Origin: a virus | Virus record (IMG/VR): IMGVR_UViG_3300026078_000063 | Coordinates: 1 to 34,825 of that record | DNA: 34,825 bases | Strand: one strand, 5' to 3' | Shown here: in pieces, positions 1-34,825 of the stretch | How the letters are laid out: every line of letters begins with the position of its first letter | Position numbering within the stretch: the first letter of the stretch is position 1 | Program-made: the position numbers and the translations under genes | The notes under the pieces: generated by a model | Told to the model about the DNA's origin: nothing | Databases searched by the model: none | What the model saw: only the letters and a program-made list of their open reading frames with translations

Positions 1-297
1 CCGGAGTTGCCCGAGGCCGTGGCAGCGCCGTAGTCGCCCGAGGCCGTGGCAGCGCCGGAGTTGCCCGAGGCCGTGGCAGCGCCGGAGTAGCCCGAGGCCG
101 TGGCAGCGCCGTAGTCGCCCGAGGCCGTGGCAGCGCCGGAGTTGCCCGAGGCCGTGGCAGCGCCGTAGTCGCCCGAGGCCGTGGCAGCGCCGGAGTCGCC
201 CGAGGCCGTGGCAGCGCCGGAGTTGCCCGAGGCCGTGGCAGCGCCGGAGTTGCCCGAGGCCGTGGCAGCGCCGTAGTCGCCCGAGGCCGTGGCAGCG
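1..297. repeat. 27-bp tandem repeat, 11 units
   Basis: Eleven exact 27-bp units run from the first base and all lie in frame within the minus-strand repeat protein. Each unit encodes AATASG, two variable residues, then G. In coding order the variable pairs are DY, NS, NS, DS, DY, NS, DY, YS, NS, DY, NS. Eighteen framework bases are identical in every unit and all changes fall in the two variable codons. There are no unique spacers, so this is not a CRISPR array. Confidence 0.97.
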
Positions 298-728
298 CCG
301 TTCTTCTCCGATGTATTGCAACCAGCCTGAGGCTTGGCGCGGCTCGTGGTGTATTCGATAGCCGCCTTGATGAGGCCGGCGAGATTGATCTCCGCCTTGA
401 CCTTGATCTTGGAGCTGGCGATCTTCGAATCGTCACCGTGGCGCGAGATCTCGCCGCCCTGCTCGACGATGGCGAAGCGCGACGTGCCGGGCTTGTAGTA
501 GCGCAGCACGTGCAACGGGTATTCGCAGGCGTGGAAGCCGCTTTCGCATGCCTTGACGAGGCCGTCATGCTCGTAACTCTTGCCGACCTCGTACTGGAAG
601 TCGCGGCACTTGAGGCTCTTGTCGAAGCCCTTGTAGGCGATCTGAACGGGTTCTTGCGGCGCAGAGACCTTCGGCTTGACGGTCTTGCTCGACTTCGGCG
701 CTTCGGTCTTGGTCTTTCGGGTTGCCAT
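1..728 (-). CDS. DUF7666-type tandem-repeat protein, N-terminal part (continues at 34825)
   Basis: This is the first half of a 401-aa protein whose other half lies at 34348-34825. It starts with ATG at 728-726. Residues 1-143 form a globular head that includes YKGFDKSLKCRDFQYEVG, an EHDG motif, ESGFHACEYPL and a run ending in AAIEYT. I recognise these as the conserved N-terminus of the phage and bacterial family now called DUF7666. The repeats follow, each AATASGxxG. The gene begins three bases after the stop of the 732-944 gene and should be read from the leftward promoter near 1007. The function is unknown. I see no signal peptide or membrane segment. The family assignment rests on remembered consensus, but the frame continuity across the window ends is directly visible. 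Confidence 0.85.
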   Translation of the reverse strand, partial: MATRKTKTEAPKSSKTVKPKVSAPQEPVQIAYKGFDKSLKCRDFQYEVGKSYEHDGLVKACESGFHACEYPLHVLRYYKPGTSRFAIVEQGGEISRHGDDSKIASSKIKVKAEINLAGLIKAAIEYTTSRAKPQAGCNTSEKNGAATASGDYGAATASGNSGAATASGNSGAATASGDSGAATASGDYGAATASGNSGAATASGDYGAATASGYSGAATASGNSGAATASGDYGAATASGNS

Positions 729-1111: not shown

Positions 1112-1360
1112 ATGAACCTACGATCCTACTGCCTTACCCATGGCGGAACTGCGAAGCGGGGCTGCCCAGTCATCGAACAGCTGGCCGTGAAAGCCGAATG
1201 CAGCGCCGGCACGCTCTACATGATCACCACGGACAACAAGAAGGCCGGTCCGAAACTCGCCAACGCCATCGAACGCGTCACCGAAGGCGCCGTCACGCGC
1301 TACGAGCTGCGCGAGGACATCTTCGGCACGGATCCCGCGAAGCAGGGCGAGGCCGCGTGA
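1112..1360 (+). CDS. YdaS/Cro-like HTH regulator
   Basis: This 82-aa DNA-binding protein is the likely repressor acting on the two operators just upstream. It opens with MNLRSYC and has a helix-turn-helix around residues 20-45 (EQLAVKAECSAGTLYMIT). It ends with the AIERVTEGAVTRYELREDIFG signature of the YdaS-type Cro family, in which an acidic DIFG-like tail follows the last helix. It is the first gene of the rightward operon and overlaps the next gene by GTGA. No YdaT-like partner is recognisable, so a toxin-antitoxin role is not supported. No separate CI repressor is visible in the window, so this may be the only control-region regulator. Confidence 0.82.
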   Translation: MNLRSYCLTHGGTAKRGCPVIEQLAVKAECSAGTLYMITTDNKKAGPKLANAIERVTEGAVTRYELREDIFGTDPAKQGEAA

Positions 1361-20626: not shown

Positions 20627-21958
20627 ATGCGCGTACTTCTGATCGACACCGATCGATGCGGACTCGACTTCGCCTACCGGTGCGTGCAGGCGGGCCACGA
20701 CGTGCGATGGTACAACCGATCGGTGGACGGCGAGGCCTTCAAGGATGGACAGGGCTTCCCTGGCATCTCCATGGTGAAGGACTGGCGCGAAAGCATGAAA
20801 TGGGCCAAGGATGGGCTTGTCTGGACATCCAGCAATGGGAAATTCCTAAAGGAACTGGATCAGTGGAAGCAGCACGGCTTTCCCGTGTTCGCGCCGTCGT
20901 TCGAGTCTGCCCAGCTGGAGATCAGCCGCAGCAAGGGCATGGATCTGCTGAAGCAATGCGGGATGTCGATCCCGAAGTACACCATGTTCAACTCGCTGGA
21001 CGAGGCGCTCAAGTTCGCATGGAAGGCCACTCAGCCCTATGTGTTCAAGACCATGGGCGACTGCGAGGACAAGAGCCTGTCGTACGTCTCCAAGACGCCC
21101 GCTGACCTCGTGGGGCGCATTCAGCGATGGATCAAGGATGGCCTCAAGGTCAAGGGTCCGTGCATGCTTCAAGAGCGCGTGGACGGCGTGGAATTCGCCG
21201 TGTCGTGCTGGTTCGGGCCCGACGGACCATTGCCCGACAAGTGGAACATCAACTTCGAACACAAGAAACTGATGCCGGGCAACTACGGACCGAACACTGG
21301 CGAGATGGGCACGGTCATCCAATACGCGAAGCAATCGAAGCTCGCGGATGCCGTCTTTACTCCCAAGCTCGTTGCTGCGCTACGCAAGCTCCGGCATCTC
21401 GGCGATGTGGACGTCAATTGCATCGTGGACAAGGAGGGCACACCGTGGCCCCTAGAGTTCACCTGCCGACCGGGCTGGCCGTTCGATTGGATCGTGGATG
21501 AAACCCATCCTGAAGATCCAGCGGAATGGAAGCGAGATCTCTTGCTTGGTAAAGATTCGCTGAAAGTTTCCTATGACGTCGCAATCGGCAATGTGATCGC
21601 CACGCCGCCCTTTCCGTATGACGAGCATGACGACGGCCAATGTATGGGCCTGCCGGTGCAGACGCCGAAAAACTGGCGAGGTATTCACCCCGTCAACATG
21701 ATGTTGGACAAAGGTCCGGCCATGGAGGGCGAGAAGGTCGTGGAGAAGGACATCTTCAAGACGACGGGCGATTACGTGATGGTTTGTGTTGGCATCGGAA
21801 AGACGGTCATGGCCGCGAAGAAGGCGACCGACAAGATCATCGGCCAGATACAGGTGCCCAACATGATTGTTCGCAACGACATCGGCATGGGACTGGAAAA
21901 GGTGCTGCCTACGCTGCACAAACTGGGCTATGCCGAGAACATGGAGTTTGACGCATGA
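20627..21958 (+). CDS. PurD-like ATP-grasp ligase
   Basis: This 443-aa protein has the layout of phosphoribosylamine-glycine ligase (PurD, about 430 aa) and other ATP-grasp enzymes that join a carboxylate to an amine using ATP. The N-terminal pre-ATP-grasp domain begins MRVLLIDTDRCGLDFAY. FAPSFESAQLEISRSKGMDLL (about 88-108) matches the GARS linker in which a glycine-proline-Q-L-E-x-S-K pattern is conserved. PYVFKTMGDC holds the ATP-binding lysine. DVDVNCIVD and WPLEFTCRPG (about 260-285) hold the metal-binding acidic residues. Key PurD residues are altered, so the substrate may differ. No ribosome site is obvious. It overlaps the tail-fibre gene by ATGA, and no other purine gene is present. 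Confidence 0.78.
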   Translation: MRVLLIDTDRCGLDFAYRCVQAGHDVRWYNRSVDGEAFKDGQGFPGISMVKDWRESMKWAKDGLVWTSSNGKFLKELDQWKQHGFPVFAPSFESAQLEISRSKGMDLLKQCGMSIPKYTMFNSLDEALKFAWKATQPYVFKTMGDCEDKSLSYVSKTPADLVGRIQRWIKDGLKVKGPCMLQERVDGVEFAVSCWFGPDGPLPDKWNINFEHKKLMPGNYGPNTGEMGTVIQYAKQSKLADAVFTPKLVAALRKLRHLGDVDVNCIVDKEGTPWPLEFTCRPGWPFDWIVDETHPEDPAEWKRDLLLGKDSLKVSYDVAIGNVIATPPFPYDEHDDGQCMGLPVQTPKNWRGIHPVNMMLDKGPAMEGEKVVEKDIFKTTGDYVMVCVGIGKTVMAAKKATDKIIGQIQVPNMIVRNDIGMGLEKVLPTLHKLGYAENMEFDA

Positions 21959-31076: not shown

Positions 31077-31685
31077 CTAGGCGGCCTTCGATCCGAAGCG
31101 GGCGATGTAGCTGTCCAATTCGCCAATGAAATCGTCCACTGCTTGCTGGAGACTGGCCATGTAAGCCTCGTCACGCTCGACGCGGATGCAGAACAAAGGA
31201 AGGCGTGGCCAGTAGCTCACGAAGTCGCACCAGGCACGACCGCTTATCCATAGTTGCCCTTGTACCTGCGCGACGTGTTCGGATGGCAGCTTGCCCTTGT
31301 CCAACACGTCCAGTTGCAAGTGCGGGAGCTTGGTCTTGATTTCCAGCAGACCATCGTCGCCAACCAGACTGTCAGGACTTGCGCCAACGCGACCACGACG
31401 CATGAAGCCAACCGACAGCGGCTCTACATCATTCGTGAAGGCGTACATATCGCGCGCTTCCGATTCCATGATGTGGCCGCGCTCGGTGTGCGCGTTGCTG
31501 AAGCTCTCCGCACATTCACCAGTGATAGCTTCACCGGCAAGCGTCAGCATGTATTTCCGTCGCGTGATGCCCTGGCCCTTCGCCAGAACATCCGCGAACC
31601 GCGATGCGGTAACGATGCCGCGCCGAGCCTCGAACCATTCAGGTGTGTTTTGGAGGCATTCGAAGATTTCCAGAGCGTCAGTCAC
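31077..31685 (-). CDS. YqaJ-family recombination exonuclease
   Basis: This 202-aa exonuclease likely resects double-stranded ends for single-strand annealing. It has WFEARRGIVTASRFADVLAKG (in place of the RRxGIGGSD opening), HTERGHIMESEARDMYAF, GASPDSLV and LLEIKTK, which carry the PD-(D/E)xK catalytic residues, and AQVQGQLWISGRAWCDFVSY. It belongs to the YqaJ/lambda-exo group. The GTG start at 31685 gives a GTGA overlap with the ERF gene. ERF and exonuclease together form a two-component recombination system. Confidence 0.93.
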   Translation of the reverse strand: MTDALEIFECLQNTPEWFEARRGIVTASRFADVLAKGQGITRRKYMLTLAGEAITGECAESFSNAHTERGHIMESEARDMYAFTNDVEPLSVGFMRRGRVGASPDSLVGDDGLLEIKTKLPHLQLDVLDKGKLPSEHVAQVQGQLWISGRAWCDFVSYWPRLPLFCIRVERDEAYMASLQQAVDDFIGELDSYIARFGSKAA

Positions 31686-32413
31686 TTTGCTGACTCCCTG
31701 CGCAATTCCTCGATGCGCCGATTGAAAGCCGCCATCAGCGTCTTGGGCACTTTCTGCGGCTCGCCCCATTCCGAAAGCATCTCGGCCTTCACGGCATCGC
31801 GCGACACTTTGTCGGTCATGTCGGCGATCTTGTCGATCCATGCTTGGTCGAATTCCGGCTCCTGAACGGATGCGTACGCATCGTCGTCCTCGCCGTGACT
31901 GGTGAGATTGAGGAGCGCGCCGGCCGTGTAGCGCTTGCCATAGCTCACGGTGGAGGCGACAGCCTGCACGGCGTTCTTGCTGCCACTGGCGTCAGCCGGA
32001 AGCGTGATGCTGGTTTCCTCGCGATGGCCCGCTGCGTGCGACAGGACGCCCGTGACCGTAATGCCGTTCGCGAAGTCCGTGCGGAAGGTGAGGGCGAAGC
32101 CGTGCTTCATAAGCACCGGCTTGATTGCGGTGTTGATGTCCTCCCACAACGCGAAGGTATAGCGAACCTGGCCCTGCACAACGGCCTTGCCACGTTCGCC
32201 GATAGCCGGCAATTCCGGTTGCAACGCTGACATGGCTGCATCAAAAGCCGCTTTCGCCTCACGCGCAATGGCGCGCTCCTGCATCTGCATCAGGCGTTCC
32301 ATCTTGTCGATATCGACGGACGGATCCCGTGCTGCGCGCTCGATCATGGAATACATCGGATCGGCGACAGCCATTGCCTGCGAAGGCTGATCGATCTTGG
32401 CTACGTTGCTCAC
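31682..32413 (-). CDS. erf: ERF-family single-strand annealing protein
   Basis: This 243-aa protein likely coats and anneals complementary single strands, as P22 Erf does. The core has FDAAMSALQPELPAIG, YTFALWEDINTAIKPVLMKHG (about 85-105), SHAAGHREETSITLP and VSYGKRYTAGALLNL, all typical of the ERF superfamily. A linker and a basic C-terminal helix follow (NRRIEELRRESAK). It starts with GTG at 32413 with AGAGGA upstream; a short hairpin lies immediately before that site. It is coupled to the exonuclease by GTGA. Confidence 0.94.
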   Translation of the reverse strand: MSNVAKIDQPSQAMAVADPMYSMIERAARDPSVDIDKMERLMQMQERAIAREAKAAFDAAMSALQPELPAIGERGKAVVQGQVRYTFALWEDINTAIKPVLMKHGFALTFRTDFANGITVTGVLSHAAGHREETSITLPADASGSKNAVQAVASTVSYGKRYTAGALLNLTSHGEDDDAYASVQEPEFDQAWIDKIADMTDKVSRDAVKAEMLSEWGEPQKVPKTLMAAFNRRIEELRRESAK

Positions 32414-34347: not shown

Positions 34348-34825
34348 TCAGGCCTCCACCGGCTTGCCGCCGCGCAGCGAATACCAGGTGTCGGCTTTGA
34401 TGCCGTCGCGTCCGGCAATGCCAGCCCAAACGGCAACGATCGTCCTGCTTGAATCACGCTCTACGAGGAAAAGAGCGCACCCTTCTTTGCCGCGAACCTT
34501 GCCGGAGTAGCCCGAGGCCATGGCAGCGCCGTAGTCGCCCGAGGCCGTGGCAGCGCCGGAGTTGCCCGAGGCCGTGGCAGCGCCGTAGTCGCCCGAGGCC
34601 GTGGCAGCGCCGGAGTTGCCCGAGGCCGTGGCAGCGCCGTAGTCGCCCGAGGCCGTGGCAGCGCCGGAGTTGCCCGAGGCCGTGGCAGCGCCGGAGTTGC
34701 CCGAGGCCGTGGCAGCGCCGTAGTCGCCCGAGGCCGTGGCAGCGCCGGAGTTGCCCGAGGCCGTGGCAGCGCCGGAGTAGCCCGAGGCCGTGGCAGCGCC
34801 GTAGTGGCCCGAGGCCGTGGCAGCG
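34348..34825 (-). CDS. DUF7666-type tandem-repeat protein, C-terminal part (continues from 1-728)
   Basis: This is the second half of the 401-aa protein that starts at 728. Twelve more repeat units are followed by a 50-residue cap ([18 protein letters not shown], then [20 protein letters not shown] and [12 protein letters not shown]). This cap is characteristic of the family. The stop is at 34350-34348. The frame agrees with the N-terminal part only if base 34825 is joined to base 1. In total the protein has 143 head residues, one Gly, 23 nine-residue repeats and the cap. Confidence 0.85.
34502..34825. repeat. 27-bp tandem repeat, 12 units
   Basis: Twelve units in the same phase as those at 1-297. 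In coding order the variable pairs are HY, YS, NS, DY, NS, NS, DY, NS, DY, NS, DY, YS. The last unit (34502-34528) also has a framework change, Thr to Met. Joined through the window ends, the array has 23 units, though read assembly may have changed the true number. Confidence 0.97.

Follow-up and report, generated by a model that had tools for sequence, protein, structure and literature searches.

An early gene encoding near-identical nine-residue repeats occurs in many phages that are unrelated to each other, and the way in which these repeats change suggests a fast-changing binding surface. The example analysed here lies across the two ends of the IMG/VR record IMGVR_UViG_3300026078_000063, whose 34,825 bases are referred to below as the window. 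The pattern of the array is held with much higher confidence than its functional reading; the reading preferred here, a recombination-shuffled binding surface on an accessory early protein, is given about an even chance of being correct.

Joining positions 728 to 1 of the minus strand to positions 34825 to 34348 produces a single unbroken open reading frame of 401 amino acids (Table 1). Judged from the sequence, the join is probably real, because the two parts are in register and together give back both ends of a protein that is unbroken in its relatives; that the join brings back the N-terminal domain as well as the conserved C-terminal cap gives it further support. The N-terminal domain, or head, matches DUF7666 (PF24703) with an E value of 1.6e-36 and 125.1 bits, against a Pfam gathering cut-off of 27 (128.8 bits in the whole-record search). 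The protein also matches PHROG 4433 (E 1.6e-100), and has the head, nine-residue array and cap that characterize this subgroup. The cap is common to the window protein, gp53 of phage ES18, the Acinetobacter phage proteins and YdhT of E. coli. PADLOC returned no match. Collagen-like matches in the Pfam, NCBIfam and PDB searches were rejected as compositional: no stretch of the Pfam Collagen match passes alone, and GAATASGxy does not have Gly-X-Y spacing.

Table 1. Positions in the window of the repeat-protein gene, its parts and neighbouring genes.
Feature	Position	Strand	Basis
5' part of repeat-protein gene: basic leader, DUF7666 head, units 1-11; ATG at 728	1..728	-	Pfam DUF7666
3' part of repeat-protein gene, across record ends: 12 further units, C-terminal cap, stop	34348..34825	-	in-register join
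DUF7666 domain, residues 30-121; predicted ADP-ribosyltransferase-like fold	366..641	-	Pfam; modelled relatives
Repeat array, units 1-11, 9 aa each, GAATASG-x-y	1..299	-	TRF, joined ORF
Repeat array, units 12-23; last unit has the sole framework change, Thr to Met	34504..34825	-	TRF, joined ORF
Conserved C-terminal cap, residues 351-401 (51 residues)	34351..34503	-	ORF, relatives, model
YqaJ-type exonuclease	31077-31841	-	PF09588 E 1.2e-19
ERF annealing protein	31682-32413	-	PF04404 E 1e-15
YdaS/Cro-like HTH gene, divergent from array gene; marks lysogeny/early switch	1112..1360	+	PF15943 E 7.2e-8

The array comprises residues 144-350 of the joined protein, and both of its halves are detected by TRF. 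The initial annotation had described 23 units with a common framework and one Thr-to-Met change, and this is what is found: 23 in-register units of 27 nt, in which the framework departs from identity only by ACG to ATG in unit 23. The variable codons are likewise as it had them, the first (x) being AAC, GAC, TAC or CAC (NAC) and the second (y) TCC or TAC. The array does lie at both record ends as claimed, although its exact limits are 1-299 and 34504-34825 rather than 1-297 and 34502-34825. From unit 1 to unit 23 the variable pairs read DY NS NS DS DY NS DY YS NS DY NS HY YS NS DY NS NS DY NS DY NS DY YS. Like units show no preferred spacing at lags 1-8, which was the test for two units per solenoid turn; in the window, DY-DY neighbours are weakly avoided (P 0.025, one of several looks).

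Relatives were drawn from phage records, IMG/VR and GTDB genomes; the closest GTDB locus is in Rhodanobacter glycinis, where the best segment is 79% identical. In nearly all of them a locus-specific framework is repeated almost unchanged and is followed by a variable pair. The frameworks include GAATASG, SAATNTG, SAASNTG, GAASATG, AQIGSSG, SKLAASG and others. In 44 of 52 arrays no columns vary more than the pair after the conserved Gly, a result obtained without fixing the position beforehand. Eight loci (L050, L065, L072, L073, L078, L080, L090 and L106) have an eight-residue period, AATAG-x-y-G, with the same variable pair, and L026 has a two-residue x-G period. In CP1-type Xanthomonas phages (L155:1261-2237, L157:1261-3055) a short gene has the same cap and 9-mers that have diverged; it adjoins genes with GNAxVW hexapeptide-like repeats that are likewise length-variable.

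Selection at the variable pair was assessed by counting distinct codons per column in each array, excluding the last (boundary) unit, in 52 arrays, or 34 after thinning by framework. Across the 52 arrays the x,y codons show 182 extra types that change the amino acid and 5 that are synonymous, compared with 43 and 29 for the seven framework codons. Expressed per opportunity (kappa 2, 34 frameworks), the amino-acid and synonymous rates are 0.215 and 0.023 at x,y, and 0.018 and 0.025 in the framework. The amino-acid rate at x,y is about nine times the framework synonymous rate, while the synonymous rate at x,y is that of the framework background. Neutral opportunity at kappa 2 is rejected with P 1.2e-14 (2.9e-10 after thinning to 34 frameworks; in isolates and genomes only, the test is weaker, P 2.6e-4), values that are approximate, as types in one array share history and the thinning is a rough correction. 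The residues used are mostly D, Y and N at x and Y, S, R and Q at y, with aliphatics making up 3.5% and 1.4%, respectively. Of the 21 framework nucleotides, a mean of 0.30 differ within an array and 4.49 between GAATASG arrays. The earlier suggestion of a homogenised framework combined with diversifying selection is thus supported: an amino-acid rate raised about ninefold over a synonymous rate equal to that of the framework argues for diversifying selection atop homogenisation, and against hypermutation or neutral slack.

Two other explanations bear directly on these rates. In the first, the solenoid would be a passive spacer or stalk that sets a distance only, its turn positions being unconstrained while recombination homogenises the rest. 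The array does vary across the family from 3 to 28 units while the head changes little, as this would allow, and beta-solenoid turn positions tolerate change. However, under relaxed constraint about 18-27% of the types at x,y should be synonymous, whereas 5 of 187 were, and the residues come from a small set (D, N, Y, H at x; Y, S, R, Q at y) instead of varying freely. The spacer explanation is therefore already disfavoured, and we consider it unlikely. In the second, the variants would be made by targeted mutagenesis, through a diversity-generating retroelement or other local hypermutation, and a NAC codon with all four first bases resembles a mutated template at first sight. Yet hypermutation should lift synonymous change at x,y above that of the framework, which is not the case, and the A at the second base of codon x is for the most part retained, whereas adenine-directed mutagenesis would give NNC. 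In addition, the record, which may be incomplete, contains no RVT_1 reverse transcriptase in a search that detected its controls. This origin appears very improbable.

Within a single phage the units are homogenised; between phages the array changes faster than the sequence that flanks it. L031 and L043 have no flank mismatch in 3000 nt, with 15 and 5 units, respectively; L037 and the Dyella genome L122, again with no mismatch in 3000, differ by one gained unit; and L055 and L056, with one mismatch in 2310, have arrays of equal length in which the units are reordered. The Pseudomonas phages YA3 and Flu_PA14_4 have four flank mismatches in 2711 and arrays of 28 and 27 units that differ in both order and types, and the arrays of fLi-Aba02 and fLi-Aba03 are six units (162 bp) apart. 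Four near-identical pairs (5399/5371, Flu_PA14_4/Komp_PA14_gP, S135/S137 and S107/S135) have identical arrays. The rapid change in repeat number and order expected by the initial annotation is therefore supported by five pairs with near-identical flanks (0-4 mismatches), as against four identical pairs, with the caveat that short reads underlie several of them and that bases at variable sites are ambiguous in two. Its proposal that unit order could serve as a strain marker fails beyond very recent divergence, the order changing too fast and assembling too poorly to be reliable. Variation in repeat number is already published for Acinetobacter phages, where three variants of 27-bp repeats occur in 6-13 copies that differ between phages (PMC7354433, RoD-07), on the basis of 150-bp Illumina reads (PMC7354433); that report does not contain the selection test or the family view. 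It was the sole find of our literature search to mention such repeats, and the search returned nothing on DUF7666, SAATNTG or ES18 gp53.

Assembly deserves particular attention in an array of this kind. The longest exact repeat inside the window array is 134 bp, 127-mers are not all unique, and a contig end cuts the repeat-protein gene in 50 of 91 related viral loci. A sister contig closes within its own array by exactly 127 shared bases, in the manner of a k-mer assembler, and ambiguous N bases sit exactly at the variable positions in L010 and L043. With the record itself ending in the array, the unit count of the window and the order near the join are insecure for these reasons (the internal repeat, the contig-end cuts and the 127-bp closure), and the count of 23 and that order may be wrong. 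Two further virus contigs that start and end inside the same array were also seen, L044 with L087 (127-bp exact end overlap) and L053 with L074 (43-bp); these end repeats may be an assembly effect and not true terminal repeats. The same observations could be taken to mean that array length and order are altogether a product of repeat collapse. The unit architecture recurs, however, in dozens of contigs, isolates and genomes that are independent of one another, and arrays whose flanks nearly match differ in the unit types present as well as in order (YA3 is without DR), so we judge a pure artefact to be improbable. A practical warning follows for short-read phage genomes, which often break or collapse at exactly this gene.

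AlphaFold2 models were made for L031, with 27 relatives, and for L082, which has a different framework. In the L031 model the pLDDT is above 90 for the head, 60-76 for the array and above 80 for the cap; each unit contributes one four-residue strand (AATA), with S-G-x-y-G in a loop. The L082 model repeats this arrangement, its array being predicted with less confidence (pLDDT of about 50). The array is accordingly predicted to be a beta-solenoid to which every unit adds a single short strand, x and y lying in a Gly-x-y-Gly turn, and the location in the solenoid turn, together with the near-absence of aliphatics, suggests that x and y are exposed. The arrays of both models align best to the trimeric-autotransporter head CbpF, and in the second also to UspA1, with Z of 10.2-12.6 and rmsd of 6.6-7.7; for both heads the matches are to the folds of Arr and PARP, and in the first model also of KptA, with Z of about 5-8, which lies within the tool's range for common arrangements. 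These alignment scores are statements on shape only. The head is predicted to have an ADP-ribosyltransferase-like fold. Foldseek against the PDB found nothing significant for the whole model (best E 0.93), and a PDB sequence search with the head alone gave no match. In a viral structure library, the head of the L031 model is similar to portions of T4-type RIIB proteins and of ankyrin proteins from giant viruses.

The window record has P22-like structural genes (portal, head closure and DNA ejection). Recombination genes of the ERF and YqaJ types are present as well, together with a YdaS/Cro-like gene and one for a DnaB-type helicase. An ATP-grasp/GARS-like protein (20627-21958, plus strand; PF01071, E 1.3e-9) lies between genes of the DNA-ejection and tail-fibre types, and a short degenerate tandem repeat with periods of 12 and 22-23 bp lies at 2891-2959, inside a DUF1376 replication gene. 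In the PL early-left operon of ES18, gp53 is the first gene after gene 24, the N-type antiterminator, with cIII, kil and erf further along. In S107, S135 and S137 the gene is likewise between N and erf, and in the Acinetobacter phages it is between repressor and integrase. From this early or lysogeny-region position in annotated phages, the repeat protein is unlikely to be part of the virion. The gene is truncated in several phages: in fEg-Aba01 a deletion has shifted the frame, in Emek a frameshift is annotated, and TC7 likewise has a shortened copy. These phages propagate nonetheless, which indicates that the gene is dispensable on laboratory hosts; for fEg-Aba01 the authors saw no gross difference from its sister phages (PMC7354433).

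The resemblance of the array to the autotransporter heads CbpF and UspA1, and the presence of the gene in the lysogeny region of several phages, would also fit a surface or secreted YadA-like adhesin of the lysogen, undergoing antigenic variation through repeat shuffling. The window protein, however, has no hydrophobic signal or leader and no long hydrophobic or membrane segment (maximum 19-residue hydropathy 0.85), nor does the Pfam scan find a membrane-anchor family in it, and the ES18 gene sits within the lytic early-left operon. We regard an adhesin of the lysogen as improbable.

Under the preferred reading, a recombination-shuffled binding surface, units would be exchanged by unequal recombination or single-strand annealing, in which steps of 27 bp keep the frame. 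The phage's own ERF-type annealing protein and exonuclease may assist the exchange; encoded on the same strand as the array gene, within 31077..32413, they are candidates for the shuffling machinery. The solenoid turns would form a recognition surface on which partners from the host or from rival phages force continual change, variants of the turn pair being retained because those partners change, and the DUF7666 head would carry out or anchor the activity. The protein would act as an optional early accessory factor in host take-over, counter-defence or exclusion. If this is right, a widespread phage gene family keeps a surface of two residues per module diverse by repeat shuffling, without reverse transcriptase, which would point to a strong continuing conflict over a partner and offer a ready route to finding that partner.

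Among known systems, the repeat-variable di-residues of TALE proteins also place diversity in two adjacent residues of near-identical tandem repeats. By analogy, x and y might be a module code, in which side-chain pairs (DY, NS, YQ, NR and so on) along the solenoid form a re-writable recognition string for a linear or repetitive ligand; the candidates would be nucleic acid, a glycan or a repeat protein, and the array an independent beta-solenoid counterpart to the TALE di-residues. We put forward both the code and these ligands as long shots. The units have 9 rather than about 34 residues and are predicted to form a beta-solenoid rather than an alpha superhelix, so the likeness is an analogy only; a TALE-type modular nucleic-acid reader was rejected on the nine-residue units and predicted beta strands. 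Trimeric autotransporters are alike in array shape, and the window protein differs from CbpF and UspA1 in its nine-residue period and in having no secretion or anchor domain; assignment as a trimeric autotransporter adhesin was rejected on hydropathy and Pfam, which gave neither a signal peptide nor a membrane anchor. In the models the head aligns with Arr, KptA and PARP, yet has no PDB sequence match; K, F, C, G, H, Y and K are invariant when relatives are aligned, with no evident H-Y-E/D triad to accompany the invariant Lys, His and Lys.

The closest counterparts are the members of DUF7666 and PHROG 4433 exemplified by ES18 gp53, which share the head, nine-residue array, cap and early or lysogeny-region position, and differ in the framework, SAATNTG with DQ/NW/YQ in ES18 as opposed to GAATASG with NS/DY/YS in the window. 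A DNA-level search of 5426 E. coli genomes found no homologue of ES18 gp53. The gene g28c/g30c of the Acinetobacter phages fEg-Aba01, fLi-Aba02 and fLi-Aba03 likewise has 27-bp repeats in three variants, which the authors list among the regions of difference and place in a gene that is not essential (PMC7354433). YdhT of E. coli has related nine-residue repeats and the same cap, and differs in its N-terminus and in having degenerate, fully diverged repeats; the family link is seen in NCBIfam (E 2.6e-22 with a Pseudomonas phage protein) and BLAST. The ydhT gene (L149:6748-7560 in the K-12 chromosome) is a core E. coli gene with stable repeats: of 5426 complete genomes, 5362 have 80% or more of the 813-bp gene at a single site, nearly every listed example being full length. 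Since these degenerate repeats are kept in nearly all genomes, the fold seems not to need identical units, and homogenised, shifting arrays seem to be a trait of the phage copies.
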